From contig NC_066585.1 of the NCBI RefSeq assembly GCF_024323335.1, positions 346,200,846-346,264,845 on the forward strand: DNA of 64,000 nt. The letters run 5' to 3'. This document shows positions 27,241 to 56,458 of the stretch, piece by piece. Under the pieces are notes generated by a model. That model worked only from the letters and a program-made list of their open reading frames with translations, ran no database searches and was not told where the DNA came from. Each line of letters starts with the position of its first letter. Position 1 is the first letter of the stretch. The position numbers and the translations under genes were made by a program. Origin of the DNA: Lathyrus oleraceus (taxonomy: Eukaryota; Streptophyta; Magnoliopsida; Fabales; Fabaceae).

Positions 27241-27314
27241 CAGAAGCATGATGGCCATACTAGATCTATGGGCATTAGGGGTATGCCTGATTGGCTCTAG
27301 TGCTAGTGGGAGAT

Positions 27315-28411
27315 TGTTGGTGTAAGCCCTAAAGGCCAATACTTTTGGTACTTGTATCGAATTATTTATTAATAATAAAAGGCTTTTTCTTTATTACGTT
27401 TGTTTAATAAAGTCCCTAGAATAGCTAGTTCGTTTAATGTATCAAGTGTGACTTAATCATGAGATCATATTAAACATAAGGATATTATTCTTAAAGTATC
27501 CGTAGTCGAGCTTTATTGTGAAGTGGGATAACATTAAAGCATTAATACTATTATGTATATGGACTGATGATCACATCTCATGGTTCATGGATAAGGAGTT
27601 ATCAAGTCTTAAACATAGGTATGAATATTAAGAGTAATATTTATACTGGATTGACCCGCTATGAGAATACTATATAGAAAGTTATGCAAAGTGTAATAAG
27701 TTACTCTAATGGTGATAATGGTGTATACCACCCTTCGACCTGAAACCACTATGGACCCTAGATGTAGAGTCGAGTGCTTTATTGTTGATCAAACATTGTC
27801 CGTAACTGGATAACCATAAAGACAGTTGATGGGTACTCCATGAAGCATGATGAGGGACATGAGTGACCTAGATGGAATTTTCCCATCCTGCATAGCAGGA
27901 TAGATGTCTATGGGCCCAATATTGAACTGGACAAGGATGACACGGTCTATACCTTGTGTTCAATATATACATAAGGGCAAAAGGGTAATTATGCACATAA
28001 GTATTATCACAGATGGATTTGTCATATCACATGACATTTTCGTGTCTTGGGTAGTAGTGATGTGTTGCTAGATACCACTCACTATTTATTATGTTAAATA
28101 TGTGATTTAATATAATTGCCAATGCCACGAAAACCTACAGGGTCACACACAAAGGACGGATTGATGAGAGATAGAGTAACTAAAGAACACCGTAAGGTAC
28201 GGTGCACTTAAGTGAATTGTAGAACATCGTAAGGTACGGTGTACTTAAGTAGAATACGAAATATGGTAAGGTACCACACGCTTAAGTGAATTTGGCATAT
28301 TATAAGATATGGGCCAAATACACTTAAGTGGGTTTTTTAGCTCGAAGCCCACACAAGTGGTTCTATAAATAGAACCCTTGTGCAGAAGCATTCATTGCGG
28401 TTTCATTTTTG

Positions 28412-28481
<70 letters not shown>

Positions 28482-28706
28482 GCCTTCATTCTTAGTAGCT
28501 AGCACTGAGATTGAAGGAATCCGTTCGTATGGACTGAGTAGAGGTGTTGTCGTCATTCAACGTTCGTGATCGCTCCGTAGATCTGCATCAAAGGTTTCAA
28601 TCGTCATAAGAGGTAACTATTTTATCACTGATCATGCCCATTTGTAAGGATCACTAAAGGAGAAAATTTTAATTTCCGCTGCGTTTTGGATCGCCAATCT
28701 CCTTCA
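27315..28706 (+). repeat. 3' LTR of the second copia element
   Basis: 1392 bases, preceded by the polypurine tract TAGTGGGAGAT (27304-27314). The (CT)n tract at about 28416-28478 is longer than in the 5' LTR. Scattered substitutions relative to the 5' LTR suggest moderate age. Confidence 0.92.
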
Positions 28707-30906
28707 GCTCCACGGCTGATGAAAATCATCCTGTTATGGAATGGATCCCTGAACTTACTCTCAACATCCCTATTAATGAACTTATGGTTCTTTGTGATAC
28801 CACCATGGATTTCAAAAAATTGAAGGACAATGGCTTCGATTTCTATGAGACCTTGGAATTCCAAGGATGGAAAAGATTTTTTTAAAGATTAATTCGTCAT
28901 GTTTATCCAGTGCTTGTGAAGCAGTTCTAGATACGCGTTGTTGTTACCAAAAATACAATCTCTTTCTTCGTTATGAACAGGAAGATTGTTGTCACTGAGA
29001 AATCAATTGCTAACCTAATTTCTCACAATGGCTGTGGAAAAGGGTTTACAACATAAAAACTGATGCAAGAAGAGAATCAATGGTAGCCTCTATTATTTTC
29101 AAGGAAGGAACAAAGTTGGATGAAGGCAAAAATCCAACTGCTAAAGACCTATCTGATAAGTTAAGGGTGTGGTTTAAGATAATTATGGGATGTATTCATT
29201 ATCGACCCTGTACAAACTCCTCAGACTATATCAACACTATCCAGAAGTATATGTTGTTCTTCTTGGAAAAAAGGTACAAAATGGATCTTCCAGCAATATT
29301 GTTCAAGTTTCTTAGGGATTCTATTAGAGAAACTAGAACTGGAAACACATCCAAGAAGGGAAGGTACATTCCAAATGGAAGGTTAATTTCTAACATTCTG
29401 GTTGAAAATGGTCTTGTCGATGACCTTCTAATCAACAGTTTAACTAAGGAGCTGGTGAAAGATGCTGGAAAGATCTTTTGGGGGAAGAATCTCAAGAGCA
29501 TGAGTCTCATATCCAAGGTAATAAAGCCAAATATCATTCCTTCAAAGGATAATATTTGTGGAATGAGGATTTCGGTGGACAACTTCCCAATCTTCACCAA
29601 GATTGATCCTCCAGAAATTATGATGTCTTACCTTGAGAGTTATCTCAAGGATGGTATTGACCCAATGGTTGACCTCGTGAAGTTCTCGTGAAGTCCGATC
29701 TTCAAGACCTCGTAAGAAGAAGAAGAAGAAGAAGGCTGCCACCTTTTTGGATGAAGATGAGGTTCGTCTCATTGAGTGCCAGAAAGAAATACTTCTGCAG
29801 GACACATATAGTGTTATGCATAAATCTTCTAGAGATTCTGACACTTCTACTACTGGTAAGCTTCCTAAGGCCAAAATCTTTTTGTTTCTGATTCTGTTAA
29901 TTCTAAAAGGATCTTACCAATTCAACCACCTCACATTTCACAACCAAATTCATCTCCTTCTCAAACCATTCCCATTTCACAACCACTTCCTATAGAAACG
30001 CTTGTGTTAGAACCTGTTTCAGAACCTGTTACAGAAACTCCCACAGTTTCTGAAACTCAGTTACAACAACAACAACAAATACCACTAACACCACCTCCTT
30101 CACAGTTACCTTCATCACCTATTCCATCTCCATCTCAGACTGTTTCTGCTCCCTACATTGAAAATACAAATATAACAACATCCATAAGACATCCTTCAAG
30201 ATATTTCAGTAACCTAGTGTTTGAAGGTACTCCCGAAGGCTTGTTCAATTTTGAACCTGAACTAGAAGTATCTAATTCAGAAACACCCAAGGTCATTCCC
30301 CTTTCTCTTCCAACTATTTATGGTTCGGATCCTCATCCAACCATCACATATCTTTATGTCAGAATCCTTAAACCACCTAAACCAAACCCTAATATTGGTA
30401 AGATTCTAAATAATTTTGAGTTAGACTCAAGAAGTCGCCTTCATGCAGCTATGACGACTACTCATTCATCAGCTAATTCTGCTGAAAGTGACTCAGCTTG
30501 GGAAGACTAGAAAAGTTGGATAAACTCCAAAATCTCAAAGCTAAAGAACTTTGGGTACAAAGTATTTGAAAGAAACTTTCCTTCTAGATTTGTACCCCTA
30601 ATGGAAATCTAGAAGTTATGAAATACTCCATTGTGTCTTCCTACTCCAGAGATTAAGGAAGTTATTCCAGAAGCTGAGTTAGATTCTGGGCATCCAGAAT
30701 GCATCATGGAAAAAGTTATTGCTCAACCGATTGCTTCTGAAGAAGCTGTTACTCAACCGGTTGCTTCTGAAAACCATCATATTGAGGTTTCTCATAATCA
30801 ACAGCCTGCTAGAACCTCTTATGGGGATATTCCTGGTGTGCTTCGAAAGACCATCGGGGAATTGAAAGTTGAGAATGCCCTGGTCAAAGAATGTCTGGAT
30901 ATATAG

Positions 30907-31823: not shown

Positions 31824-34532
31824 TGTTAGAACAAGATTTGGTTCTGCATCTATACCTTAAGTTTTGATGATAACAATGTTGTATTTGTGTGAGAACAATT
31901 CTGGTACCCTAATGGTTTTTTATTGTGTAGCTTTAATAGCTAGTTCTGATTCTGAGTATATGACGTACAAAGTCATCACTTTCTGGACAATGAGTTCCAA
32001 TTCTGCTTCTCCTCCTATCCTAAGAAGTTCTGAAAGATGTTCAAAGTTGTTGTTGCAATGATCTTTCTGCTTCTGTGTTGATTAACTCCTGAGAAACTTC
32101 TGAAGAGACGTTATGTTGCTGATGCTACATTCTCCTAATTTGTGCTTCTGGACGTGACTATAATCATTAAGCTTCTAAAGAATGGCAAGCTTCTGAAGTT
32201 GTGTTACTTAGTTAAAGATTTTGAAGATCTCAAGCCAGACGTTGAGGTTATCAAGGTTCCGACTAAAGAGTCTGAAGATTTTGAAGATACTAAAGATCTC
32301 CAGCAAGACTGCTGACACTGTCAAGGTTCTGACTGAGGATTCCAAAGTTTTTGAATCCAACTGTATGTTTCTTCATTTCATGTTTCACCAACTTTCAACA
32401 TAAGCCAATGAACTTGAAGATAAGACCAAATAGGTACGTGATCAAATAGTACATAGTACAAATCAAATATTCTTTCCACCACCTGATTTCATGGGCAAAA
32501 AAAACAGTACTATACATCACACTTGTCACTGAATTTGTGGGCGAAGGACAATATACAATATCACTCCTTTCACCATCCAATAGTGAACAACCGCTCTATT
32601 TGGTTTCCCCATTTTGCCCTCTAACAATCTTCTCCTTATGCTATATAAGTGGTATTGGTGTAAGCCCTAGAGGCCAATACTTTTGGTACTTGTATCGAAT
32701 TATTTATTAATAATAAAAGGCTTTTTCTTTATTATGTTTATTTAATAAAGCCCCTATAATAGCTAGTCTGTTTAATGTATCAAGTGTGACTTAATCATGA
32801 GATGCCATTAAAATAAGGACATTATTCTTAAAGTATCCGTAGTCGAGATTTATTGTAAAGTGGGATAACATTAAAGCATTAAGACTATTATGTATATAGA
32901 GTGATGATCACATCTCATGGGTCATGGATAAGGAGTTATCAAGTCTTAAACATAGGTATGAATATTAAGAGTACTATTTATACTGGATTGACCCGCTATG
33001 AGAATACTATATAGAATGTTATGCAAAGTGTCATAAGTTATTCTCATTGTGATAGTGGTGTATACCACCCTTCGACCTGAAATCACTATGGACCATAGAT
33101 GTAGAGTCGAGTGTCTTATTGCTGATCAAACGTTGTCCATAATTGGATGACCATAAAGACAGTTGATGAGTACTCCACGAAGCATGCTGAGGGACATGAG
33201 TGACCTAGATGGAATTTGCCCATCCTGCGTAACAGGATAAATGTCTAAGGGCTCAATATTGAACTGGACAAGGATGACACGGCCTATGCCTTGTGTTTAA
33301 TATAGACATAAGGGCAAAAGTGTAATTGTACACATAAGTACTATCACAAAAGGATTTGTCATATCACATGACATTTTTGTGTCTTGGGTAGCAGTGATGT
33401 GTTGCTAGATACCGCTCACTGTTTATTATGTTAAATATGTGATTTAATATAATTGCTAATGTCGCGAAAACCTACAGGGTCACACACAAAAGGACAGATT
33501 GATGAGAGATGGAGTACATAAGGAACACCGTAAGGTACGGTCCACTTAAGTGAATTGTAGAACATCGTAAGGTACGGTGTATTTAAGTAGAATACGAAAT
33601 ATGGTAAGGTACCATGCGCCTAAGTGATTTTGGCATATCATAAGATATGGGTCACATACACTTAAATGGACTTTTTAGCTTGCAGCCCACACAAGTGGTT
33701 CTATAAATAGAACCCTTGTGCAGAAGCATTGATGCAGTTGAAATTTCATTTTATGTCTCTCTCTCTCTCTCTCACTCAAAGCCTTCATTCGTAGCAGCTA
33801 GCATTGAGATTGAAGGAATCCGTTCGTTTGGATTGAGTAGAGGCGTTGTCACCATTCAACGTTCGTGATCACTCCTTAGATTTGCATCAAAGGTTTCAGT
33901 CTCCACAAGAGGTAACTATTCTATCACTGATCATGCCCATCCGTAAGGATCACTAAAGGAGAAAAAAATTGCGTTTTGGATCGCTATTCTCCTTCAAGTG
34001 GGACTTGGAGCCTTGAAGAAAAAAAGAATGTTGAAGCGCTGCAATATTTGGAAAAGCCTAAATTCTTTGTGAAAATTTATCTTTTTATACACAGTTTTTC
34101 TTTAAGTATTTGTTTATCATTTGCGTAAAATTTGCTTGTGCAGATGTAACTTGTAACACACAAAATATTATTCAAACTGTTTGTGTAATTCCTTAAGGAG
34201 ACTAGGGTATAGTTAGATTCTTAAGAAGAGAAAGAAAGGTGTTCTTTGTGAGTTCTTAAGGAGACTAAGGTATAGTAGAATCCTTGAGAAGACAAAGAAG
34301 GTTATTCTTTGTGATTATTGTAATCAATTGATTATAGTAGATTAAGTCCTTGTGTATAAGGCAAAATCACCTTGGTGGGTGGACTAGAGTAGCTTTGAGT
34401 TTCAAGTGAACCATGATAAACTAATAGTGTTTTTTATCTCTTTGTTATTAACATGGTGTTCTTGAGTTGGTAAAATGCTTTTGTTTTTAATATCCAATTC
34501 CACCCCCCCTTCTTGTGTTTTTCACATCTTCA
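31824..34532 (+). repeat. 3' LTR of the SIRE element, interrupted by a solo LTR
   Basis: LTR sequence runs 31824-32652 and 33997-34532, with the foreign solo LTR between. It differs from the 5' copy at many positions, so the insertion is not recent. It ends CTTCA, keeping the canonical CA. Confidence 0.9.
32653..33996 (+). mobile_element. Solo LTR of the second copia family
   Basis: 1344 bases homologous over their full length to the LTR at 21395, with the first dinucleotide mutated (TATTGGTGTAAG). It is flanked by the perfect duplication AGTGG (32648-32652, 33997-34001). No internal sequence, so it arose by recombination between the two LTRs of a full copy. The SIRE LTR TATA box (CTATATAAG) ends right at the insertion point. 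Confidence 0.92.
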
Positions 34533-36267: not shown

Positions 36268-37009
36268 TGTCGCACCTCGAAAAAATGGGGATACGACTTC
36301 AAAGCGAAGCGCGATCGCACGCTCGCAATGATGGACTGAATAGAGTCGCCACCGAACTTTATTTATTCCTAAAAAGGAAAGGGGAAATATCGATAAAACC
36401 CAAGACAAATGAAAGGATAAGATATGGTCATCGCAACCAATATCAGGGTTCGGGAGTCGATTACGCAAGGGGAAGGTATTAGCACCCCTCACGTCCGTTG
36501 TACTCAACGGGAACCATTAGGTCAGTTGTGTGCGTTAATGTTAGTTTGAAATGTTAGGCTTTTCAAGTTATTAGGTGGGAAAGGAAGAATAGAAGAGAGA
36601 AGAAATGTTTTTGGATTTTTGACGAAGGACTAAACCTAAGTTTTTTATTAGTGGGCCTGACAAGATTTACAAATCCTGCTCCTACGTATCTCAAAAGAGA
36701 AATCAAGGCTTACGTAGTTCTGGGTAGAAAATGTTTGTTTGTTGGTCGATTTTTGCGAAAGTCATACTGTATTAATCGACGAAAACATTATTTTACCCAA
36801 AACAGATGAGGAGTGAACGCATACTACACATCGAACGGATTTATAAATCTACATTCGGAAAAGCGTCATTTATCTCTACTCAACAATCGTGGCCGAAACA
36901 TTGTTTTGTGTCTCTTAAGATAATATATCTTTCATTTATGAAAAAGGTTTTTGATTAACCGCACGGCGGCGAGAAAAGAATTTGATTGGTTGGATGCATT
37001 TTGAGTGAT

Positions 37010-37480
37010 GGCGAGAACTTGGATGAGCGAGATATACATCTCGAATCCTAGCCTCAGGAGTGCATGGTATACACCATGTTCCATTTCCATCTTTATTGAA
37101 AAAAGTTAAGATAGGAATTAAGTATTTTTGGAATTTGACTGGGAAAGGGTTTGAAGAAACCGCATTGACAGTTTTAGACGATGGCGAGAGTTAAGATTGG
37201 CGAGGCATACGTCTCGAATCTTAACTTCAGGAATGCATGGTATACACCATGTTCCATTTCCACCTTTATTGAGAAAGTGTTAAATAAGAATTAGGTATTT
37301 TGAGTTTTGTTGTGAAAATGACTCGACCTAGATCAAGTATTGATGGACGTTTAAGAGAAATTTGAATGAGTGTTTGAGAGAACAAAATGGATAAACTTGG
37401 ATGATGGCGAGAGCTAGGATTGGCGAGATATACATCTCGAATCCTAGTCTCAGGAGTGCCTGGTATACACCACGTTCCAT
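37010..37480 (-). repeat. Three hairpin-bearing subrepeats in the LTR
   Basis: Each copy (from about 37010, 37180 and 37400) has GATGGCGAGA, a first inverted repeat around CGAGAT-ATAC-ATCTCG (37028-37043, 37200-37215, 37424-37439), CTCAGGAGTGC or its variant, a second inverted repeat CATGGT-ATAC-ACCATG (37073-37088, 37236-37251, 37459-37474) and TTCCATTTCCA. Arms vary between copies but largely keep pairing. The right LTR has the same at about 57200-57670. Confidence 0.85.
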
Positions 37481-38111
37481 TTCCATCTTTATTGAAAAGG
37501 TCTTGAATATGAATTAATATTTTTTGAGTTTTTGATTATGAAAAATGGCTTGACGTTGGATCAAGCATTTGGTGAAAGTTTGAAAGACATGGAATAGAAT
37601 GGAGAGAGAAATGAATTGATTTGTTTGTTGAGAAAATACTCGACGTTGGATCGAGTCATATTTTTTGATATTTTGAAATTGTTGATTTTATTCTTGTGTT
37701 AGTAGCTAACTACACAGTCAAGCAATAAAGAAATAAAATAGTACAAGATTATTACACATCGGGGGAGTGGGGTACATTTTGTCAAATGGGGATTAAAAAA
37801 ATCATTAAATCGATCCCAAACAACAAATAATGCATGAGTGTAAGTGCAAGAGAACCGGCTCATTGTAAGAAAGCCCAAGAGTAAGCTATGTGAGGTTGAT
37901 GGCGATGCTTAAAAAGCAATCGACTTACGAGGGTGTGAAAAAAGGGGTTGATATTAAATCGAGAAAAGTATGATTTTTATAGTTTTCAAATGGTTTCGAA
38001 CACATGATGCAATTAAAAGAAAAACAAATCTATATTATTAAACAATAATAAAAAAAACTATGAGTAATAAAGCATAAATATAAAAGAAAAAAACAAAAAA
38101 AAACTACACAT

Positions 38112-38180
38112 AGGGGAATCGAACCCACTTCACTAAAGAACTAGACACCACTCCCCTCCACCAGACCACTTACCAACTAA
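38112..38180 (-). other. tRNA-like Pol III box pair in the LTR
   Basis: On the minus strand TTAGTTGGTAAGTGG (A-box-like, 38166-38180) is followed about 40 bases later by GGTTCGATTCC (38115-38125), a perfect B box. The segment between is longer than in a normal tRNA arm layout, so it is a tRNA-derived (SINE-like) fragment and not a tRNA gene. The second copy is at 58302-58370. Confidence 0.5.
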
Positions 38181-39203
38181 TTGTTATTTTAATATTAATT
38201 TAAATATATAAATCAAAATAAATAAATAAAAAAAAGAATTAAAATGAAAAAAACTAATAAATAGAAAACTGTTGGTCTACCCTAATTATACCTAATTAAG
38301 CTAATCAAAATTAAAAAAAAACTAATTAATCAGATTAAATCCTAATTATGATCCTAAAAAATCTAATATTCTAAACTAATATTATTCTACTCTAAACCTA
38401 AAAATGCTTATGCAAATAAGCTACGAAAATAACTAAGGTGAGAAGCGCTTATGCAAATAAGCTATTGGAAACAAATCGTGGGTTTACGTTCACAATAACA
38501 AACATCACATTCATATCAGAGCATCACGCTCATCACTGGCTCAGTATCGCTCTCAGCCTTCACTCTCTCACTCACCTCCGCTCTCTCTCATTCACTCTAA
38601 CTCACCTCTCTCACTCACTGCCGCTCTCCACTTCTCTCACCCTATAACGCAAAGGTCCAAGGTTTAAAGAGAAACAAGAAGAAAAAAGGCCCACCTTTTG
38701 AGAAAACTACGGAGACGATGAAGATTCAAACCTCCCCCCTTTCGCCTCTTCAAAAGGTTTATTCTTGATTGATTTTTTTTGATTTAGGGTTTTCTGTTTG
38801 GCCGCCTCCCTCTCTCAATTTTTCGTTTTTTCCTTCCTCCTCCCTTTGATTTCGTCTTCCCCTTTTATCCTCACAGGCTAGGGTTTCGAATTTGGTCTCT
38901 AGAGATCAAAAGAGGTTTCTGCCAAAACACTTTTTTTGTGTTCAGTATTGGATTGGTCCTGTTTGATGCTGCAATTTGAAAAGGTATTCTGAACTTAGCT
39001 TTTTCTAATCGCTTTTGTCTTAATCCCAAATTGGGAAATTTCTGGATTTTTGCATCTTTTACTAATTAATTTGTTCTTTTTTACCGTAGTGAAAAAATGC
39101 ACATCGATTTCGGTTTCTCACAGCCTTGTTGGTGTACTCGGTTTTGGGTGGCCCGTAAGAGGATTCGTTGCTGCAGGATAATGAGTTTCCAGTTCAAGTC
39201 CCT
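38181..39203. other. LTR non-coding portion, AT-rich then CT-rich
   Basis: A/T-rich to 38400, two copies of the inverted motif GCTTATGCAAATAAGC (38406 and 38448), (CT)n-like DNA at 38560-38640, then pyrimidine-rich DNA to about 39000. No gene was recognised. The same holds for 58371-59392. Confidence 0.4.
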
Positions 39204-39568
39204 CCTTGATGTAGTTTTTCTGTGTTAAAAGTTGGTCAACATAAACAACCACCGTTTCCTCTAGGTAAGTTTCAACAAACCTCCTAAAAGACCTTTTGTT
39301 TGATGCGCAGCTTCCTTAACAACCTCGAGAAACCCCTTACAAGTATCTTCAAAATTAACCTGCTCTGCATAGTTTTGTGGAAGGACTTCTATGGTGCTAT
39401 TACTGAGCTCCATTGCAAGATCATAGCAGCGTAAGTTATTGTTTATCCTGAATGGTTGCCAAGGAAATTCGGTATAGCATAACATCAGTGCTATTGTCTC
39501 GGACGATTTGAACTTGCTCTCCAAATATCCTGCATAGATCAACAGCATCTGGGGTGTATAGCTTCTCA
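39204..39568 (-). pseudogene. SEC6: Captured fragment of exocyst subunit SEC6
   Basis: Three pieces in sense order on the minus strand. First [10 protein letters not shown] and [18 protein letters not shown] (about 39568-39470). Next [20 protein letters not shown] through NFEDTCKGFLEVVKEA (39460-39315). Last SFRRFVETYLEETVVVYVDQ and LLTQKNYIKE (39290-39204). These match the C-terminal half of plant SEC6 as I remember it, a subunit of the exocyst complex that tethers secretory vesicles at the plasma membrane. Segments expected between the pieces are missing, no intron is present, and the frame changes at both joins, so no SEC6 protein could be made. The second copy is at about 59393-59757. Confidence 0.75.
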
Positions 39569-39599
39569 TTTTTAGAATCATTCAATCTTTGATTTGCTT

Positions 39600-39737
39600 T
39601 TGTAAAAACCTTTCATTCCATTATTTAATATTCCTTCAAACTGAATATTCAATACACCCAATCCAATAGGTATTTCTTCGGAAAACTCCAATACCAGAAT
39701 TTCATCATCTTCAAATAATTCAATTTTTGTAGGTTAG
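39600..39737 (-). pseudogene. APM1: Captured fragment of aminopeptidase M1
   Basis: On the minus strand an open stretch reads KIELFEDDEILVLEFSEEIP, then [20 protein letters not shown] and FYKS. This matches the N-terminal beta-rich domain of plant M1 zinc aminopeptidases (puromycin-sensitive aminopeptidase family), upstream of the GxMEN and HExxH catalytic motifs, which are absent here. About 46 codons, no intron, ending abruptly at both sides. It is followed at once by the SEC6 piece. The second copy is at about 59789-59926. Confidence 0.75.
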
Positions 39738-39815
39738 AAAACTTGTTTGTAATGACTAAGCTTGGTTGTGCTAATGACAGGTACTAATGGATGCAGGACT
39801 AATCCATGGCCGTTT

Positions 39816-40030
39816 CCTTAAAGTGAGGCTTGTAATACAATTGTGCATCCCCTGAACACCGGAAATGCAGAAAAGTATGATGAGCACCCACATAAACCAT
39901 GTTGTCATGAAGAAGAACAGCAGAACAAGAAAGGTAGATGCTGCTATGACAAATACGACAGCGGCCTTTGAATTAATCTTAAGAACTTGCTTATCACCAC
40001 CATCCCTTGTTGTGAAACTGGTATTTGGTT
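39816..40030 (-). pseudogene. Captured fragment of a signal-peptide-peptidase-like protease
   Basis: About 70 codons on the minus strand: GDKQVLKINSKAAVVFVIAA, STFLVLLFFFMTTWFMWVLI and ILFCISGVQGMHNCITSLTL. This covers two predicted membrane segments and the GMHNC region of plant SPPL-type intramembrane aspartyl proteases, lying before the catalytic YD and GLGD motifs. Those catalytic motifs are not included. The frame is open into neighbouring DNA on both sides (39771-40088), but the joined sequence is chimeric. The second copy is at about 60005-60219. Confidence 0.75.
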
Positions 40031-40041
40031 TTTTTTTTATT

Positions 40042-40165
40042 GCAGGGCTATGATTGTTTTTACAATTGCGGGATTCGCAACTTCCCAACTTTGCCCATTT
40101 TGAAAGGCATGTGCAAGCATTGGAAGAATGAGCATTTGTATTACAATCACCGATTGGTTATGCCC
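40042..40165 (-). pseudogene. Captured fragment of TRRAP/Tra1
   Basis: On the minus strand: VIVIQMLILPMLAHAFQNGQ, then SWEVANPAIVKTI. This closely resembles a conserved helical-repeat segment of TRRAP/Tra1, the large scaffold subunit of histone acetyltransferase complexes. About 40 codons. It ends at an A10 run (plus-strand T run 40029-40038) that separates it from the SPPL fragment. The second copy is at about 60231-60354. Confidence 0.7.
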
Positions 40166-41149
40166 AAGTTGCTTTGATTGGAAAAGGTTGCAGCTTGTTT
40201 CGTTTTGTAGTGATAATGGTGTCTAGCTGGCTTGGTATGTTTGCTGCTGTAAGTCTTTGTCTCTTGAATTCCTCACCAAACAGCATTTTCTCAAACTTGA
40301 CTAACTTCCTTCTCTTTTGCCTTGGGATCATTATTGTAAGCAAGCATCTTACAACTATCTTGCGACCCCCGACTCAAATCTGTACGCCGGTCATGCCTGC
40401 ATCAAGATATTCTATTTGAACTATATAAGAAAGTACTTTGTGCTGGTAGGCTCTCATCCTCAGTATCTTCAAATATCAACCTGATTAATTTAATTCAATT
40501 TTGTACATATTGATGTTTGTAGGAATGAGGGGTGAGGCTTCTCGATCAGGATTTGGTGTCTTGCAGTCCTAGGAGATGCTACTGTTAACATAATAACCGA
40601 TCCTCCTTTCTGAACTGAGCATTAAAGTCAGCTCAAGTGATTACATATGGCTGCACGCGGCCAATCAGCAGAGCAAAAACAGTTATGACTATTGTATATA
40701 GTTCCATAATTCTTAAAATTGGAATTCTGTCAAAGAAACTGCAGAGAAATTGTTCCGTCATTGGTCCGAAACATAAAAATGTTTTGTTGCTTGTATGAAT
40801 CAAATTCGCAATATTATTTTCCAAAGTTGTTATCTTTAGTAGTTCCTAGTTTTGGCATTAAAAGAAAAGGTAGCTTTGTATCAATATTGTGTATGAGGAT
40901 CATCTCCTGCAGCCGTCATGAGAAATTGCATGAAATCAAGCCCTTAAATATAAAATCTGCAACTCAATAAATTGAATGACCGGATATTCAACTTCACTCC
41001 TTGTATGATATAGGTACACGGCCTATGCTATAAATGAAATACATATCATTCAAGTTGGTTAACACAAAGGAGATAGCTTTGAGGATTTTAGCAGGCTAGC
41101 ACCATAACGTAATGAATTATAAGCACTTTTCCATTTCCAAACTTTTCAT
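40166..41149 (-). other. Probable further captured DNA, source not recognised
   Basis: The minus strand contains short open stretches such as KRRKLVKFEKMLFGEEFKRQ (about 40300-40240) and EYLDAGMTGVQI (about 40410-40370) that look protein-coding but were not identified. Higher GC patches alternate with intron-like AT-rich DNA. The second copy is at about 60355-61339. Confidence 0.35.
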
Positions 41150-41273
41150 TAGCTGCTCTCGTCATGCTCTTTCAAAAACTCATAAAAACTTGGATCCTTT
41201 TGCTGAAGACCTTCAAGTTTAGGGACATTCTCTTCGAGATTCAATAATTGGAAGGCGGATAGAACAAGTTCAC
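41150..41273 (-). pseudogene. Possible captured fragment of a Noc2-like protein
   Basis: The minus strand reads ELVLSAFQLLNLEENVPKLE and then GLQQKDPSFYEFLKEHDESS before a stop. The KDPxFYxFLKEHD phrase resembles the Noc2 family of ribosome-biogenesis factors. Identification rests on this one motif. The second copy is at about 61340-61463. Confidence 0.35.
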
Positions 41274-41923
41274 AAAAAAAAATCTAGGATCTCTCTTTGT
41301 ATCTTAGAAACTCCATGTACTCATGCGATGATGTTTTAAGGTTATGCATGTAAATGAATGAATGACGTAATTGAAATATGAATGATTATGAAGAATTCCT
41401 TCAATATTAATGGATTTCCTTTTTTTTAATGTGAATGAAGCAAATATGAATGTAAATTTGGAACGTGAAAAATGTAAATAAATATGATAAATAAAAATAA
41501 ATATGAAATAATAAATATGATCATGAATGAAGGATATGAAGGTGAGTGAAGAAAGAATGCAAACGAGTGATTGGTGGGAAGAAAATTTCAGGGCCAAAAT
41601 CTGGGTATGACAGTTGCCCCTATTTAAGCGTCTTCAACTAGAGAATATGAAGCAGGACACTCTTCATATGATCATAGTGGGAGATGGTTAAATACTAAGA
41701 AGACCCGGATTTTGATCCTGAATCCCTACGACATGATGTGATATGATATGATATGCATGACATGATATGCGAGGATGCATGATTCTTTTTTTTAATTTTC
41801 TTTTGCTAGGGATATGATGGACCCTTGACAGGAGATGCTACTAGACAGACTAACCTGTGGGGAATGCTGATGGTCCACAGGGAGACAGACAAATGGTAAA
41901 AAAACAAATTTGCTGGGGAAGAC
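41274..41923. other. LTR end, then 3' edge of Ogre-derived interior
   Basis: 41274-41612 is the AT-rich start of the LTR (element sense), reading TGTCATACCC on the minus strand. 41613-41918 is the interior: minus-strand polypurine tract (AAATAGGGGCAAC) at the border, GATATGA repeats near 41720-41770. 41919-41923 (AAGAC) is the target duplication of the Tekay element. Confidence 0.6.
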
Positions 41924-44046
41924 TGTAACACCCTTCTAAATACCCCAAATTATTATAATTAAAATAACAATATATTCATCAGAGTAATTATGCCCCGAAG
42001 GGTGTCACACAATCATTTCACAAAATTATCAAAATGTCCTGTCATGCTCATTTATTTAATCAAAATAAGGTTCTTTTGCATAATTCGCAGCGGAATAAAA
42101 TCCAACATCAATGTAAAACATGTAACACAATACATGTAAATCATTCAACCACCAATATCAAATTAATTAAAACATTCCCTCCCGATGTTACATCTATCAG
42201 AGCATGACCCATAAGAACTACTCTAGACTCCAAGCAATAGCTTCTATTCAACTCATTTCTCGTTACCTGAAAAATAGGTGTAAGGGTGAGTTCCTCAATC
42301 AATATAACAAGCATTATAGAACAACATGTAATGCTAAGTAATTAACACATTAATTCACCCTAACCAAACTACACACTCAGCAATGGCAGTATCCGTTCAA
42401 ACATCATATTCAACAATAACATATAGCATATATATAATCTCAACCATACTCAACATCAACCACACAACACACAACACACATATAATACTGGAATACATCC
42501 ATTCATATTATATGCCATACATTTATTATGCAATGAGACTCTATGCATGCGGTACCGACTATTTGTGAACATATAGTTCAACCTCACCGTCCAAATCCAG
42601 GCACGGCTACCAAGCTCACTAGTCCCACTCATTTGAGACATAGTGACTCACTCACTAATTCCTCACCATGGGAATTAGCTACCACCCCAAATGGGCCATG
42701 AAATGCACGCTACTCACCTAGCATGCAAACAATCAACAACAGTCCAATAATTACTAAACTCACTAATTCCTCACCATGGGAATTAGCTACCACCCCAAAT
42801 GGGCCACAATGTGCAAGCTAATCACCTAGCAATTGCAACATCACAACGAATTCAGAATAGACACATGCTCACACTCTAGCCACAAAACAGTCTATTCACA
42901 ATGCATACACAACTGATACAATCACAGCATCATGCATACCAACACACATCATTAACACGTTTTATCACAAAAGCATATCATATCATGCCACATAATCAAA
43001 CACAGTATTAGCTCACTCTACTAATACCTATACTACTCAAAACAACGGGAAATGATCCCTATCACATCATGCCTCAGCTAAGTCGCATCACTCAGCCTAA
43101 ACAACCAAAAGCTGCACAACAGTAGTACAGAAAAATCACAATTCTGCCCATACGCGTATTACCTCTGCCATACGCGTATTGCCCAAACCTGGCCAAACCC
43201 ATACGCGTAATGCCCACTCTCATACGCGTATTGCGCAATTCCTCGCCCAACTCATACGCGTATCACCTATCCCATACGCGTATGCTACGCGTAATAATCT
43301 CCCCTTACGCGTACCAACAGAGACCAATTTACGTTCAAAATATCATCTTTTTCTCCCATACGCGTAAGACTTCCTCCATACGCGTACCAGCCAGCCCATA
43401 CGCGTATTGCCTAGTGCCATACGCGTATGACCAGAAACCAGAACTCTCAGATCTGCTATGGCTTTCTCTGTTACGAAACCTATCCGATCCAACCTTCCAC
43501 AGTCCAAATTACACAAAATAATCGTCCATATCATCTACACGAATCATATCCTATTCATCTTCACCAATCCTAACATTATCTCTTCTAATTCCTACGAATT
43601 CTTTTCAATTATCATCCAATTTCATTCGTCCAATATTTCACAAATTCATCACGCATCAATCAAATCAGAGATACAACCAATGGTTATCACTACCCAGTAC
43701 ATATTATCATATAATACCCTTTAACCGATGATAAACCCCCCTTACCTGAGTAAATCCGGCAGTCTCTGAGCTCCAAGCTTTCCCTTCTTTCAACCTTCGT
43801 TCTTTTGCTTTTTTTGCCCTTTCTGCCTCTTTTCCCTTTTCACGTGAAATTAACCTTTTTACCAAAAAATGGGATTTTTCTAAATTCCAACTTATATATT
43901 ATTCCAATAAATAATTATCCCAATAATTATTATTCCAAAATAATAATAAAATAATAATAATCCAAACTTCCAATTATTTAATTAAATTAATAAATAAAAT
44001 ATTAATTTAAATTAAATAATTAGCTTAGTTTAATTGGGGTGTTACA
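41924..44046 (-). repeat. 3' LTR of the Tekay element (left copy)
   Basis: 2123 bases. On the + strand it starts TGTAACACCC and ends GGGTGTTACA, giving inverted TGTAACACCC ends. A repeated block CTCACTAATTCCTCACCATGG occurs twice (about 42650, 42758). Twelve TACGCGTA palindromes lie at 43151-43427. Confidence 0.95.
43151..43427. promoter_or_regulatory. Cluster of twelve TACGCGTA palindromes in the Tekay LTR
   Basis: Starts at about 43151, 43169, 43202, 43222, 43254, 43274, 43285, 43305, 43358, 43378, 43398 and 43420. Most are extended to CATACGCGTA. Spacers differ in sequence, so this is motif clustering rather than simple tandem duplication. ACGCGT contains the CGCG core bound by plant CAMTA factors. 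The matching cluster is at 49813-50089, with one member mutated. Confidence 0.85.
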
Positions 44047-44060
44047 ACTCTCCCCCACTA
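44047..44060 (-). other. Polypurine tract of the Tekay element
   Basis: On the minus strand TAGTGGGGGAGAGT directly abuts the 3' LTR. It is the primer for plus-strand DNA synthesis. Confidence 0.85.
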
Positions 44061-44088
44061 AAAGAGTTTTCGTCCTCGAAAACATACC

Positions 44089-47000
44089 TCAAGCGAACAG
44101 CTCCGGATAAGACTCCTTCATCTGACTCTCAAGTTCCCAAGTCACATTGCCACCTGCTGGTCCTCCCCAAGCTACCTTCACCAAGGCGATCTCTTTACCC
44201 CGCAATTGCTTCAATTCTCGATCCTCGATCCTCATAGGTGACGTTTCAACAGTCAGGTTATCTCTCACCTGTACATCATCTACTTGGACTACATGCGACG
44301 GATCATGAATGTACCTCCTCAACTGAGACACATGAAAAACATCATGCAAATTCGCCAGCGGCGGCGGTAAAGCGATACGATAGGCTACCTCTCCTATCCT
44401 CTCCAAAATCTGATAAGGACCAATAAATCGAGGTGTCAACTTCTTCGACTTCAAAGCCCGACCAACACCAGTTATCGGAGTAACACGAAGAAACACGTGA
44501 TCTCCCTCTCGGAACTCAAGTGACTTCCTCCTCTTATCATGATAACTCTTCTGACGACTCTGAGCAATTCTCATCTTCTCCTGAATCATCTTAATCTTTT
44601 CCGTAGTTTGTTGAACAATCTCCGGTCCAACTACAGCACTCTCACCGGACTCATACCAACATAACGGTGTCCGACATCTCCTACCATACAAAGCTTCAAA
44701 CGGTGTCATACCAATGCTCGAATGAAAACTATTGTTGTAGGTAAACTCAATCAAAGGCAAATAACCGTCCCAAGCACCTCCCTTCTCCAAAACACAAGCT
44801 CTCAAAAGATCCTCTAACGACTGAATCGTCCTCTCAGTCTGACCATTAGTCTGCGGATGATATGCAGAACTCAATCTCAGCTTAGTTCCCAAAGCTCTCT
44901 GCAAACCTTCCCAAAACTTCGATGTGAATCTAGGATCTCTGTCCGAAACAATACTAGACGGAATACCATGCAAACTTACAATCTTCTCAATATACAACTC
45001 AGCTAGTCTCTCTAACGGATAATCCATTCTGATCGGAATGAAATGAGCCGACTTCGTCAATCTATCCACAATCACCCAAATAGCCTCAAAATTCTTACTT
45101 GTCCTCGGCAAACCAGAAACAAAATCCATACTGATACTATCCCACTTCCACTCTGGAATAGCCAACGGTTGCATTAGCCCAGACGGCTTCTGATGCTCAA
45201 TCTTTGACTTCTGACAAGTCAAACAGGAATAAACAAAACTCGCAATTTCTCTCTTCATTCCTGGCCACCAAAATAACTTTTTCAAATCATGGTACATCTT
45301 TGTAGCTCCAGGATGAATACTCAAGCCACTACGATGTCCCTCTTCAAGAATACTCTTCTTAAGCTCAGTAACATCCGGAATACACACCCGACTACCAAAT
45401 TTCAAAACACCATTCTCATCAACTCTGAATTCACCACCTTGACCTTGATTTACTAAAGTCAACTTATCAACCAAAAGCATATCGGATTTCTGACCCTCTC
45501 TGATCTCATCCAGAATATTACTCGTCAACTTCAACATCCCCAATTTAACACTATTGTGAGTACTCTCACACACCAAACTCAAATCTCTAAACTGCTCAAT
45601 TAAATCCAACTCTTTAACCATTAACATAGACATGTGTAAGGATTTCCGACTCAATGCATCAGCCACTACATTTGCCTTATGCGGATGGTAATTCAAACCA
45701 AAATCATAGTCCTTCAGAAATTCTAACCATCTCCTCTGTCTCATATTCAGCTCTTTCTGATCGAACAAATACTTTAAACTCTTATGGTCACTGAAAACTT
45801 CAAATCTTGATCCATACAAATAATGCCTCCACAACTTCAGAACAAATACCACGGCTGCCAACTCTAAATCGTGCGTCGGATAGTTCTTCTCATGAACTCT
45901 CAGTTGTCTCGAAGCATAAGCTATAACCTGCTTATTCTGCATCAACACACCACCCAAACCCAACAATGAAGCATCACAATAAACCTCAAACGGTTCCGAC
46001 GAACTCGGTAATATCAGAATAGGAGCAGTAGTCAACCTTCTCTTTAACTCTTGGAAACCTTCTTCACACTTTGAGTCCCAAACAAATGCTTGCCCCTTTC
46101 TAGTCAACATTGTCAACGGTAACGCCAACTTGGAAAATCCCTCAATAAACTTCCTATAATAACCTGCAAGTCCAAGAAAACTCCTTATCTCAGAAACTGA
46201 CTTCGGAGCTTCCCACTTAGACACCGCTTCTATCTTAGAAGGATCAACGGCAACACCACCTCTTGAAATCACATGCCCAAGAAAACTAACTTCTTCTAAC
46301 CAAAATTCACACTTAGACAGTTTAGCAAATAACTTCTTTTCTCGGAGGACTTCTAAAACCACTCTCAAATGCTCAACATGCTTTTCTTCAGATTTCGAGT
46401 ACACCAAAATGTCATCAATAAACACTACTACAAACTTGTCCAGGTACGGATGGAAAATCCTATTCATATACTCCATAAATACTCCAGGCGCATTAGTCAC
46501 ACCAAAAGGCATTACAGAATACTCATAATGTCCATACCTTGTTCTAAAAGCAGTCTTCTGAATATCCTCAGTTTTCACACGTATCTGATGATACCCAGAT
46601 CTCAAGTCTATCTTGCTGAACACACTTGCACCAACCAACTGATCCATCAAATCATCAATCCTCGGTAAAGGATACCGATTCTTGGTCGTCACTTTATTCA
46701 GTTGCCTGTAGTCCACACACAACCTCATAGTACCTTCTTTCTTCTTAACCAACAACACTGGTGCACCCCACGGTGACACACTCGGACGAATGAATTTCTT
46801 ATCCAACAGATCTTCCAATTGACTCTTCAATTCAGCTAGCTCAACAGCAGACATACGATAAGGAGCCATCGATATCGGTCTAGTACCAGGTACCAAATCA
46901 ATTGAGAACTCAACTTCACGCTCTGGCGGCAATTCATTCACTTCTTCCGGAAACACATCAGGAAAATCACACACCACAGCGAGATCGCCAATCACCAGTT

Positions 47001-48459
47001 TATCTTTAGCTTCCAAAGTCGCTAACAGCATAAACAACTCCGCTCCATCTGCTACTTCCTCATTCACCTGCCTGGCTGATAGAAACAAACTCTTTCCTTC
47101 TTCAATCTCAGGAAATATCACTGTCTTATCAAAACAGTTGATAGAAACTCGGTTAAACACCAACCAGTTCATGCCCAGAATAACATCAATCTGCACTAGT
47201 GGAAGACACACCAGGTCTATCCCAAAGTCTCTACCAAAAATACTCAAGGGACAACTTAGACAAACTGAAGTAGTAGTTACTGAACCCTTCGCAGGAGTAT
47301 CAATCACCATACTTCCAAGCATCTTAGATATCTCTAACTTAAGTTTCACAGCACAATCCAAAGATATAAAAGAATGAGTAGCACCGGTGTCAATAATAGC
47401 TACAAGAGGAAAGCCATTAATATAACACGTACCTCGGATCAAACGATCATCTGCAGAAGTCTCAGAACCTGATAGAGCAAAAACCTTGCCTCCTGACTGA
47501 TTCTCTTTCTTCGGCTTAGGACACTGTGGACTGATATGACCCAACTCTCCACAGTTGAAACAAGTCACAGTCTTCAACCGGCAATCTGCAGCTAAATGAC
47601 CACCTTTTCCACACTTGAAACACTTCTTCTCATTACTGGTACACTCATGGATACGATGTCCAGCCTGACCACATCTGTAACACTTAACAGGAGCACTAGA
47701 ATCTCCTCCACTAGGCCTCTTCATCCCACTCTGCCTCTGGAAACCTTTGCCAGCTGCATACGGTTTTTTACGATCAATCTGATTCTTGCCTTTCCTATCA
47801 ACCCTTTGCTGATAGCTCTCTGCTCTAGCCTTGGAATCCTGTTCGAAAATCCTGCAACAGTCAACCAAATCAGAAAACACTCTAATCCTTTGATACCCAA
47901 TCGCCTGCTTGATCTCGGGACGCAACCCGTTCTCAAACTTCACACATTTGGAAAATTCCCCAGCAGCCTCAGCATAGGGAGTATAATACTTCGACAGCTC
48001 TGTGAACTTAGCAGCATACTCCGTAACGGACCTGTTACCCTGCTTCAATTCCAAGAACTCTATCTCCTTCTTTCCTCTGACATCCTCGGGAAAATACTTC
48101 CTCAGAAATCTCTCTCTGAACACAGCCCAAGAAATCTCAGCATCTCCAGCAGTTTCCAACTCAGTGCGGGTAGCAACCCACCAATCATCAGCTTCCTCTG
48201 ACAGCATATGTGTACCGAACCTGACCTTCTGGTTATCAGCACACTCAGTTACTCTGAAGATCCTCTCTATCTCCTTCAACCACTTCTGAGCACCATCTGG
48301 ATCGTATGCTCCTTTGAACATTGGAGGATTGTTCTTCTGGAACTCACTCAGTTGACGAGCAGCTCCCATTCCCACAACATTCGGATTTCCTCCAAGTACT
48401 CCAGCTAGCATACCCAGAGCCTCAGCAATCGCAGCATCATCTCTACCTCTTCCAGCCAT
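44089..48459 (-). CDS. Gag-pol polyprotein of a Tekay-type chromovirus
   Basis: Single open frame of 1456 codons, no stop or shift. Retrotransposon gag domain at about residues 40-210 ([23 protein letters not shown]). Three CCHC zinc knuckles at about 260-314 ([42 protein letters not shown]), more than the usual one. Protease at about 340-440 with [12 protein letters not shown] at about 560-740 with active site FIDDILVYS near 680. RNase H at about 820-940 ([24 protein letters not shown]). Integrase zinc region at about 1044-1083 and catalytic core with Asp1112, Asp1173 and Glu1209. A C-terminal tail at 1405-1455 containing KVAWGGP and VTWELE resembles a chromodomain, which would steer integration to marked chromatin. 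One protein is made and cleaved by its own protease. All catalytic residues I can check are present. The start ATG at 48459 lies about 110 bases after the primer site. Confidence 0.95.
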
Positions 48460-48569
48460 CTCTATTCTGAAAACCCAAACAAGCTAAACAAATAAGTACT
48501 GATAGGGTTACACAACACCTATCCCGTACAGGGGAAACAGAATAACTACGACTCGACACGACCGACTAT

Positions 48570-48581
48570 GCTCTGATACCA
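48570..48581 (-). other. Primer-binding site of the Tekay element
   Basis: On the minus strand TGGTATCAGAGC, four bases after the 5' LTR. It is the initiator tRNA-Met type. Confidence 0.92.
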
Positions 48582-48585
48582 CTAA

Positions 48586-50707
48586 TGTAACACCCTTCTA
48601 AATACCCCAAATTATTATAATTAAAATAACAATATATTCATCAGAGTAATTATGCCCCGAAGGGTGTCACACAATCATTTCACAAAATTATCAAAATGTC
48701 CTGTCATGCTCATTTATTTAATCAAAATAAGGTTCTTTTGCATAATTCGCAGCGGAATAAAATCCAACATCAATGTAAAACATGTAACACAATACATGTA
48801 AATCATTCAACCACCAATATCAAATTAATTAAAACATTCCCTCCCGATGTTACATCTATCAGAGCATGACCCATAAGAACTACTCTAGACTCCAAGCAAT
48901 AGCTTCTATTCAACTCATTTCTCGTTACCTGAAAAATAGGTGTAAGGGTGAGTTCCTCAATCAATATAACAAGCATTATAGAACAACATGTAATGCTAAG
49001 TAATTAACACATTAATTCACCCTAACCATACTACACACTCAGCAATGGCAGTATCCGTTCAAACATCATATTCAACAATAACATATAGCATATATATAAT
49101 CTCAACCATACTCAACATCAACCACACAACACACAACACACATATAATACTGGAATACATCCATTCATATTATATGCCATACATTTATTATGCAATGAGA
49201 CTCTATGCATGCGGTACCGACTATTTGTGAACATATAGTTCAACCTCACCGTCCAAATCCAGGCACGGCTACCAAGCTCACTAGTCCCACTCATTTGAGA
49301 CATAGTGACTCACTCACTAATTCCTCACCATGGGAATTAGCTACCACCCCAAATGGGCCATGAAATGCACGCTACTCACCTAGCATGCAAACAATCAACA
49401 ACAGTCCAATAATTACTAAACTCACTAATTCCTCACCATGGGAATTAGCTACCACCCCAAATGGGCCACAATGTGCAAGCTAATCACCTAGCAATTGCAA
49501 CATCACAACGAATTCAGAATAGACACATGCTCACACTCTAGCCACAAAACAGTCTATTCACAATGCATACACAACTGATACAATCACAGCATCATGCATA
49601 CCAACACACATCATTAACACGTTTTATCACAAAAGCATATCATATCATGCCACATAATCAAACACAGTATTAGCTCACTCTACTAATACCTATACTACTC
49701 AAAACAACGGGAAATGATCCCTATCACATCATGCCTCAGCTAAGTCGCATCACTCAGCCTAAACAACCAAAAGCTGCACAACAGTAGTACAGAAAAATCA
49801 CAATTCTGCCCATACGTGTATTACCTCTGCCATACGCGTATTGCCCAAACCTGGCCAAACCCATACGCGTAATGCCCACTCTCATACGCGTATTGCGCAA
49901 TTCCTCGCCCAACTCATACGCGTATCACCTATCCCATACGCGTATGCTACGCGTAATAATCTCCCCTTACGCGTACCAACAGAGACCAATTTACGTTCAA
50001 AATATCATCTTTTTCTCCCATACGCGTAAGGCTTCCTCCATACGCGTACCAGCCAGCCCATACGCGTATTGCCTAGTGCCATACGCGTATGACCAGAAAC
50101 CAGAACTCTCAGATCTGCTATGGCTTTCTCTGTTACGAAACCTATCCGATCCAACCTTCCACAGTCCAAATTACACAAAATAATCGTCCATATCATCTAC
50201 ACGAATCATATCCTATTCATCTTCACCAATCCTAACATTATCTCTTCTAATTCCTACGAATTCTTTTCAATTATCATCCAATTTCATTCATCCAATATTT
50301 CACAAATTCATCACGCATCAATCAAATCAGAGATACAACCAATGGTTATCACTACCCAGTACATATTATCATATAATACCCTTTAACCGATGATAAACCC
50401 CCCTTACCTGAGTAAATCCGGCAGTCTCTGAGCTCCAAGCTTTCCCTTCTTTCAACCTTCGTTCTTTTGCTTTTTTGCCCTTTCTGCCTCTTTTCCCTTT
50501 TCACGTGAAATTAACCTTTTTACCAAAAAATGGGATTTTTCTAAATTCCAACTTATATATTATTCCAATAAATAATTATCCCAATAATTATTATTCCAAA
50601 ATAATAAAAAAATAATAATAATCCAAACTTCCAATTATTTAATTAAATTAATAAATAAAATATTAATTTAAATTAAATAATTAGCTTAGTTTAATTGGGG
50701 TGTTACA
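48586..50707 (-). repeat. 5' LTR of the Tekay element (right copy)
   Basis: 2122 bases. Differences from the left copy include CATACGTGTA for CATACGCGTA near 49812, AAGGCTT for AAGACTT, TTCATCC for TTCGTCC and one T deleted in a T run. It drives transcription leftwards. Confidence 0.95.
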
Positions 50708-50835
50708 AAGACAAATCTTGTTGGAGAGTCAAACACACTCTAGGGAGTAATCTGAGTGGAGTTTGATAAGCAGTACTTAGAGTACAAGAGAGTAAGTTCA
50801 CAATTTGACTTACTAAGCCCGAATACGAGAATTTC

Positions 50836-52200
50836 CACAACAGGTTCATGTACGACCTGACAATGCTGGGGAATAATCATGGAGAAAAACTCTTCAGAAC
50901 AGGTTCATGTATGACCTGACACCGGAATAAAGGCTCAACAACAGGTTCATACATGACCTGAATAGTATTGAACAAAAATTGGAAAAACTCTTCAGAGCAG
51001 GTTCATGTATGACCTGACCCCGGAATAAAAGCTCAACAACAGGTTCATACATGACCTGAATAGTATTGAACAAAAATTGGAAAAACTCTTCAGAGCAGGT
51101 TCATGTATGACCTGACCCCGGAATAAAAGTTCAACAACAAGTTCATACATGACCCGAATAGTATTGAACAAAAACTGGAAAAACTCTTCAGAGCAGGTTC
51201 AAGTATGACCTGACCTCGGAATAAAAGCTCAACAACAGGTTCATACATGACCCGAATAGTATTGAACAAAAACTGGAAAAACTCTTCAGAGCAGGTTCAA
51301 GTATGACCTGACCCCGGAATAAAAGCTCAACAACAGGTTCATACATGACCCGAATAGTATTGAACAAAAACTGGAAAAACTCTTCAGAGCAGGTTCAAGT
51401 ATGACCTGACCCCGGAATAAAAGCTCAACAACAGGTTCATACATGACCTGAATAGTATTGAACAAAACTTGGAAAAAACTCTTCAGAGCAGGTTCAAGTA
51501 TGACCTGACCCCAGAATAAAGCTCAATAACAGGTTCATACATGACCTGAATAGGATTGAACAAAAATTGGAAAAACTCTTCAGAGCAAGTTCAAGTATGA
51601 CCTGACCCCGGAATAAAAGCTCAACAACAGGTTCATACATGACCTGAATAGTATTGAACAAAAATTGGAAAAACTCTTCAGAGCAAGTTCAAGTATGACC
51701 TAACCCCGGAATAAAAGCTCAACAACAGGTTCATACATGACCTGAATAGTATTGAACAAAAATTGGAAAAACTCTTCAGAGCAAATTCAAGTATGACCTG
51801 ACACCGGAATAAAGGCTCAACAACAGGTTCATACATGACCTGAATGGTATTGAACAAAAATTGGAAAAAACTCTTCAGAGCAGGTTCAAGTATGACCTGA
51901 CCCCGGAATAAAGCTCAATAACAGGTTCATACATGACCTGAATAGGATTGAACAAAAATTGGAAAAACTCTTCAGAGCAGGTTCAAGTATGACCTGGCCC
52001 CGGAATAAAGCTCAATAACAGGTTCATACATGACCTGAATAGGATTGAACAAAAATTAGAAAAACTCTTCAGAGCAGGTTCAAGTATGACCTGACCCCGG
52101 AATAAAGCTCAACAACAGGTTCATACATGACCTGAATGGTATTGAACAAACAGGGAAAAAATCTTCAGAACAGGTTCATGTATGACCTGATACTGGAATA
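50836..52200. repeat. About 14 tandem copies of a 97-98 bp unit with paired palindromes
   Basis: The phrase CAGGTTCATACATGACC recurs at 50942, 51040, 51138, 51236, 51334, 51432, 51530, 51628, 51726, 51824, 51922, 52019 and 52116, always 97 or 98 bases apart. Each unit holds two imperfect palindromes, CAGGTTCATACATGACCTG and CAGGTTCAAGTATGACCTG, separated by GAACAAAAATTGGAAAAAC and GGAATAAAAGCTCAA. Copies differ by a few bases. It lies on the 3' side of the interior (element sense), where Tat-lineage elements commonly carry variable tandem repeats. Confidence 0.95.
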
Positions 52201-56438: not shown

Positions 56439-56456
56439 TCCCCAGCAGAGTCGCCA
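56439..56456 (-). other. Primer-binding site, Ogre tRNA-Arg type
   Basis: On the minus strand TGGCGACTCTGCTGGGGA, two bases from the right LTR. It is the primer site I know from Ogre elements, with one change (T for C at position 10). Confidence 0.85.
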
Positions 56457-56458
56457 TC

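Follow-up and report, generated by a model that had tools for sequence, protein, structure and literature searches.

We analyzed a 64,000-nt stretch of the pea genome (Lathyrus oleraceus, C7:346200846-346264845; hereafter the window), the minus strand of which carries an Ogre-like retrotransposon with long terminal repeats (LTRs). Both LTRs (5' LTR 61803-56459, 3' LTR 41612-36268) contain the same chain of fragments from six host genes, all in the sense direction of the element, i.e., pieces of Noc2, ribosome recycling factor (RRF, 3' end only), Tra1/TRRAP, a signal peptide peptidase-like protein (SPPL), M1 aminopeptidase and SEC6. Related LTRs elsewhere in the genome carry differing, partly overlapping sets, and the fragments of SEC6 and SPPL precisely lack introns of their parent genes. 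Host mRNAs, copied into cDNA, are thus the source of at least some of the cargo. We assign a probability of about 0.6 to the reading that the U3 (unique 3') region of this LTR is a cargo zone, which repeatedly gains host cDNA that is reshuffled between co-packaged RNAs.

Host gene fragments within the LTR

The translated block at 39204-41273, which is enclosed by both LTR copies, was compared with Pfam, PDB and a set of 5.8 billion proteins. In sense order (minus strand, 5' to 3'), the fragments read Noc2-RRF-Tra1-SPPL-M1-SEC6. A sequence-only reading of the window had described SEC6, M1, SPPL and Tra1 as a head-to-tail chain of unrelated, sense-oriented and intronless gene pieces within the duplicated LTR, with a Noc2-like piece and further coding-looking DNA upstream. 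The chain is confirmed and larger than described there: to the four genes, whose common orientation is borne out, two are added here and more in the family. SEC6, which had been named first, is instead the last in sense direction.

The SEC6 fragment (39202-39576, minus strand as all following fragments) consists of three stretches (39576-39448, 39446-39297, 39294-39202), all placed by tblastn, of which the middle one reaches E 1e-22 and 94% identity to legume SEC6. The SPPL fragment (39812-40012) matches Pfam (E 3.9e-12) and PDB (SPPL2A, E 2.8e-7); its identity is 92% to Lathyrus sativus vs. 74% to chickpea. The M1 fragment (39592-39736) matches Pfam below cutoff (E 8e-4) and a puromycin-sensitive aminopeptidase in PDB (E 5.6e-5), and a longer copy in the sibling LTR L017 reaches E 4.7e-25. 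The RRF 3' end (40258-40324), i.e., the C-terminus, the stop and the start of the 3' untranslated region (UTR), was recognized via the sibling L020, where the whole RRF domain is present (94% identity over 67 nt).

Judged by these comparisons, Tra1 and Noc2 appear as the weakest gene identifications of the window LTR. The Tra1/TRRAP fragment (46 aa, 40049-40186) matches Pfam's Tra1_ring with E 0.011 for the ORF (open reading frame) and 0.036 after trimming, neither of which reaches the curated cutoff, and a PDB search gave no match for it; its likeness to plant TRRAP is partly our assumption. For the Noc2-like fragment (27 aa, 41158-41238), all four PDB matches at E<=10 are Noc2 (best E 0.006); its Pfam search gave no match. 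The three antisense frames of the block show no host family.

We also considered the unassigned middle of the block as a source of more gene pieces. This was rejected, since no Pfam or NCBIfam match was obtained and the PDB matches are weak and unrelated (best E 0.03); the sole gain is the RRF 3' end. For the coding-looking DNA between Noc2 and RRF, which the sequence-only reading had left unidentified, no protein relative was found at E<=1 among 2215 candidates, which were proteins of roughly 250-810 aa only.

The 3' LTR (36268-41612, minus strand) has a length of 5345 bp with TG...CA ends, as obtained from self-BLAST and from reading the ends. The 5' LTR (56459-61803, minus strand) holds the second copy of the chain at an offset of about +20189. 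Both LTRs are 99.1% identical over 5348 columns, with 41 substitutions and 6 gap columns (self-BLAST, pair alignment), and the SEC6 junctions of the 3' LTR recur in the 5' LTR at LTR positions 2162, 2310 and 2387. The respective Kimura two-parameter divergence of 0.0077 corresponds to about 0.3 million years at an assumed substitution rate of 1.3e-8. Besides the near-identical LTRs with TG...CA ends, a primer binding site (PBS) region directly adjoins the 5' LTR (GATGGCGACTCTGCTGGGGA, 56439-56458, minus strand) and a purine tract precedes the 3' LTR, as in LTR retrotransposons in general. The PBS motif, which may match tRNA-Arg, is found in the same or nearly the same form beside several sibling LTRs. 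One simple pattern finds three TATA-like sites at LTR positions 3403, 3632 and 4768; since the cargo is upstream of all three, it is probably located in U3.

Comparison with parent genes

We compared the SEC6 and SPPL fragments with their parent genes. The SEC6 parent is located on C7 at 521.41-521.44 Mb with exons across about 20 kb. Three of its introns are precisely missing in the window LTR, where the adjoining exons are represented on either side of each junction (GAGCAG|GTTAAT, GCTAAG|GAAGC, ACACAG|AAAAAC), and two further ones are missing in the siblings L014 and L016 (ATTCAG|GTGA, GCTATG(GCTAGG)|ATAAAC). For SPPL, whose parent (L049) is found on C3 at 509.43 Mb, the window LTR lacks one intron inside the piece (GTTCAG|GGGATG) and a second at the right border of the piece (TTTAAG|GAAATGG), where about 8 nt of the following exon serve as evidence, and the siblings L020 and L043 lack one further intron. 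In total, five parental introns (3 SEC6, 2 SPPL) are cleanly absent from the window LTR and no intron remnants were found in either piece. As judged from these alignments, the precise absence identifies spliced RNA as the source of both fragments, i.e., the claim of intronless pieces holds for SEC6 and SPPL.

The comparison also places the fragment borders. Both the left and the right end of SEC6 lie inside parent exons, i.e., the parent flanks continue as SEC6 protein, and the SPPL fragment stops, on the right, about 8 nt past the start of an exon. None of the three gene ends examined is therefore a splice join, which favors template switching over the splicing of a captured DNA element.

Cargo of sibling LTRs

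A search of the genome with the block yielded at least 54 matches. We scored 40 of 214 candidates and fetched twenty sibling regions; since the siblings were found with the block itself, this sample is biased towards cargo-sharing LTRs. The exact TGTCATACC start is present in 18 of the 20 regions (all except L012 and L026) as part of a conserved 5' tip (TGTCATACCC.GATTTTGG, 41588-41612 in the window, minus strand). Likewise, the 3' half of the LTR (36268-38292, minus strand) is common to all twenty, for L023 only from LTR position 4082. Between the fixed tip and the fixed 3' half, the U3 content differs among copies, such that the LTRs are mosaics.

Sense frames of whole or partial U3 regions were scanned with Pfam for L011, L014, L016, L017, L018, L020, L021 and L024. 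Ten host families exceed the curated cutoffs: RRF, ARM repeats (At3g06530/UTP10 type), kinesin motor, SPPL, DUF842, UTP20_N, SEC6, M1_N (the L017 copy given above), aldehyde dehydrogenase (ALDH) and SBP domain. RRF in L020 reaches E 3.2e-48 and is open over the whole domain. L011 gave a weak match only, the ARM match recurs in L019 below cutoff, and a scan of the sense frames of L023 gave none. Weak matches were left uncounted, e.g., Rpb1 (L024, E 0.007), porphobilinogen deaminase (L011, E 0.02), RMI1, L19, BORCS6 and a few others. Adding Noc2 and Tra1 to the ten, we estimate from these domain matches that at least twelve host genes contributed to the lineage.

Nine antisense frames of L018, L020 and L021 contain no host family (one HCV_NS2 match with E 0.12), i.e., together with the window no antisense host piece is present in the four LTRs scanned. 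Furthermore, fifteen module probes gave 88 matches over 18 of 19 LTRs with none on the minus strand, a count that includes homologous modules and self-hits and is thus not one of independent matches. L023 matched none of the fifteen probes.

The order of the window is shared by L009 and L010. L018 and L019 show UTP10-RRF-Tra1, L020 shows kinesin-SPPL-RRF, L021, L022 and L028 show UTP20-DUF842-Tra1-SPPL-M1, L017 shows SPPL-M1-ALDH, and L024/L025 carry SBP. Since sets and orders differ while overlapping in part, capture looks serial, i.e., not a single event, with modules being reshuffled. There are also separate captures of genes known from the window. At C1:394721887, a longer piece of SEC6 (residues 283-450) is present in one stretch and in three copies, the flanks of which match the LTR 3' half; at C5:220913929, SPPL residues 161-308 are found. 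The three SEC6 copies (L030-L032, G000:C1:394702463-394722390) are about 9.7 kb apart and have 1-2 internal stops. As a side observation, L016 (G000:C1:332771500-332779500) is one LTR with a purine tract before and a PBS after it, like a tandem element sharing an LTR.

The copies also differ in detail. L014, L015 and L016 keep a SEC6 exon that is missing in the window, L010 and L013; the loss in the window amounts to 85 bp compared to L014/L015 and 84 bp compared to L016, while the parent exon has 84 nt. The AG end of the lost stretch arose by a change relative to the parent (GCTATG to GCTAGG). Given that the stretch runs from GT to AG and is flanked by an AGG repeat, secondary splicing and slippage fit equally well. 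Native exon skipping of SEC6, suggested by gene models in which the window would skip exactly one exon, was rejected because the parent comparison shows an extra G left behind. Relative to the window, L009/L010 have a deletion of 141 bp, L013 of 76 bp and L021/L028 of 33 bp. The joins in L009, L013 and L021 show overlaps of 4-7 bp, the 7-bp one being imperfect, as would be expected from strand transfer in reverse transcription; DNA repair may produce them as well. Identity of SEC6 exons to the parent (stretches >=50 nt) is 93-100% for L016 and 92-98% for the window, and copies are therefore not all of one age.

Origin of the cargo

In the reading we prefer, the reverse transcriptase would leave the genomic RNA while copying the U3 at its 3' end, continue on a spliced host mRNA packaged alongside it, and afterwards return, which would place a sense cDNA piece in U3; the normal LTR duplication would then carry it to both ends. 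Repetition over generations would stack pieces of different genes, exchange among co-packaged element RNAs would shuffle them, and small deletions would trim them. The spliced origin of SEC6 and SPPL, the presence of the cargo in both LTRs, the mosaic siblings and the lack of antisense host pieces in the four LTRs scanned are observations, while we infer co-packaging, the template switch itself and the order of events. Two reports bear on such a process: Ogre RNA is known to be partly spliced (PMC6317226), and a proposal on the tandem repeats of Ogre invokes abnormal strand transfer between co-packaged RNAs of the element (PMC7004042). For the wider view that the LTR is an acquisition zone, i.e., that U3 between the fixed tip and the promoter half keeps taking up and swapping spliced host sequences and thereby forms a running record of co-packaged host mRNAs, we see an even chance. 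No benefit of the cargo to element or host is shown.

Several observations weigh against this reading. About 0.8 kb of the block (41150-40330) is without known source. The parents of M1, Tra1, Noc2 and RRF were not located, such that the parent comparison covers 2/6 genes. An intermediate carrying just one cDNA insertion was not encountered, and the co-packaging of host mRNA is presumed. Finally, the SEC6 junction near 39297 (CAAACA|GTAAGT...TTGAAG|AAAGG) is a cryptic GT-AG junction that leads from exon interior to exon interior without microhomology. Nucleotide comparison shows it in the window, L014 and L016; in L009, L010, L013 and L015, protein alignments are interrupted at the same SEC6 residues (574/618). 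The loss of 84-85 bp near 39447 is also GT-AG, but comes with the 3-bp AGG repeat. Both junctions would suit splicing of the element's own RNA.

Such splicing is central to a scenario in which a gene-packing DNA transposon (Helitron, Pack-CACTA or Pack-MULE) landed in sense in U3, the element transcript was spliced, and the intronless version became fixed in both LTRs. Tgm-Express1 of soybean provides a model, since its five gene fragments have exons that are spliced into chimeric transcripts (PMC1947982). On the other hand, the three gene ends inside exons and the lack of intron remnants in SEC6 and SPPL weigh against this scenario, and simple scans found neither inverted repeats bounding the block nor a convincing Helitron end. 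Matches to the CACTA motif are about as frequent in the window as expected by chance (10 vs. 8.2), though two exact ones lie inside the cargo of the two LTRs, one in each. Gene-packing elements take up fragments in either orientation, while neither the block nor three siblings contain antisense host pieces. We consider this scenario unlikely. The sequence-only reading had offered both origins: template switching on mRNAs fits better, given the absent introns, the ends inside exons and the lack of antisense host families, whereas an inserted capture element, for which the cryptic GT-AG junction leaves room, is not supported, as simple scans found no transposon ends around the block.

Sense orientation, U3 position and spliced exons would, by reasoning, also result from chimeric read-through, where host exons ending in the LTR R region served as acceptors at the first strand transfer via perfect R homology and thus extended U3. 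The common 3' half with variable upstream sequence is consistent with this. However, a return switch to the conserved 5' tip would be required every time, and SEC6 and SPPL both end on the right within an exon, with other sequence following instead of a splice site, which leaves read-through rather unlikely. A one-time chromosomal assembly, e.g., filler DNA at break repair using cDNAs, the chain of which the LTR family inherited and trimmed, has the recurrent order Tra1-SPPL-M1 in its favor, since that part points to one ancestral block in several siblings. Yet unrelated genes were added at different places (UTP20-DUF842; UTP10-RRF; kinesin-SPPL-RRF; ALDH; SBP), such that several events are required, and we regard a single assembly as very improbable.

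Relation to known systems

The closest precedent is Bs1 of maize, whose host gene pieces reportedly lie in the element body. Both systems combine several unrelated host gene pieces in one LTR element (PMC13317346); Bs1 differs in having three genes, while the pea element has six in one LTR and at least twelve in the family, located inside the LTR and reshuffled. By its fragments, the pea element qualifies as multi-gene transduction of the Bs1 type, with an RNA origin shown for SEC6 and SPPL only. Ogre elements of Fabeae (Tat clade, Ty3/gypsy) resemble it in their large LTRs, 3' tandem repeats, an extra ORF upstream of gag (here in a sibling) and pol-less derivatives (PMC7004042), while host cDNA cargo in the LTR is absent from the cited portions of these accounts. 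Tgm-Express1, Pack-CACTA, Pack-MULE and Helitron elements likewise unite several unrelated gene fragments in one mobile element (PMC1947982). Tgm-Express1, however, is a DNA transposon, and its gene fragments retain both exons and introns as far as described there; the pea LTR shows neither such ends nor SEC6/SPPL introns. Given the outcome of the simple scans for terminal inverted repeats and Helitron ends and the absent SEC6/SPPL introns, membership in the Pack-type or Helitron classes appears unsupported. New sequence by template switching, in BARE-2 into the LTR, is known from BARE-2 and Veju (PMC13317346), where the donor, in the parts cited, is another retrotransposon or unknown DNA and not spliced host mRNAs of many genes. 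Surveys of rice and sorghum report hundreds of LTR-captured genes (PMC3726574), with no mention of pieces inside the LTR in the text available. Searches of open-licence literature revealed no account of several host genes being captured serially as cDNA inside LTRs.

Gene captures by plant LTR elements in the cited accounts, as far as available, are mostly of single genes and in the element body. In the pea element, a changing string of spliced host pieces is found in the LTR itself, i.e., in the part that contains the promoter and polyadenylation signals and that each transposition duplicates. If our reading is true, three questions become testable: at what rate co-packaged host mRNAs are copied by plant reverse transcriptases, whether such uptake made the Ogre LTRs long, and whether small RNAs from LTR pieces of essential genes (SEC6, Tra1, UTP20, RRF) touch the parents. 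Gene annotation is affected as well, as LTR cargo copies resemble exons.

Ogre assignment and further features of the window

We call the element Ogre-like based on LTR size, tandem repeats and the ORF1-gag layout of a sibling rather than on pol. The window element has the very long LTR and a 98-bp tandem repeat array (50884-52201) in its 3' non-coding region. Its gag-like ORF (307 aa, 54560-55483, minus strand) is 39% identical to the gag ORF of a sibling; pol was not found within 52202-56458. An extra ORF upstream of gag was not seen in the window element; it is present in the sibling L029, where a 671-aa ORF (DUF7745) is followed by a 655-aa gag ORF. This 10-kb stretch (G000:C3:498021200-498031199) contains further ORFs after gag, which presumably resemble Athila gag and probably belong to a nested element. 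Right at the end of the stretch there is a distant match to pol, possibly also part of a nested element.

No target site duplication of the window element was found, the outer flanks being AATAT and ACCTT; recombination can remove such duplications. GTTTT is present on both outer sides of the sibling LTRs L021/L028, but these are ~50 kb apart with another copy between them. A 205-bp perfect tandem duplication (1.9 copies, 100%; 61802-62200) abuts the outer end of the 5' LTR; given the missing target site duplication, it may reflect a rearrangement at the border of the insertion or a problem of the assembly.

Downstream of the cargo, the LTR module 38633-39103 resembles an antisense 5'UTR with a putative intron. 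Therein, a T-rich 106-nt stretch on the plus strand (38984-39089; AAAAG|GTATTC...TACTAAT...TTTTTTACCGTAG|TG) lies behind CT-rich, AGGGTTT-bearing DNA; together they resemble an intron-containing plant 5'UTR in antisense to the element, and are partly found in sibling LTRs. Since several siblings share parts of 38633-39103 at 74-98%, the reading as a captured 5'UTR is weakened and the module may be old LTR sequence.

A Ty3/gypsy element at 41924-50708 is a recent insertion into the Ogre-like element, with 2.1-kb LTRs of 99.7% identity, an uninterrupted 1464-aa gag-pol ORF and a 5-bp duplication (AAGAC). Elsewhere in the window, there are three copies of a 1.4-kb repeat that are 90-95% identical (21394-22775, 27314-28707, 32655-34001), with partial companions (13241-14629); they probably represent another LTR family.

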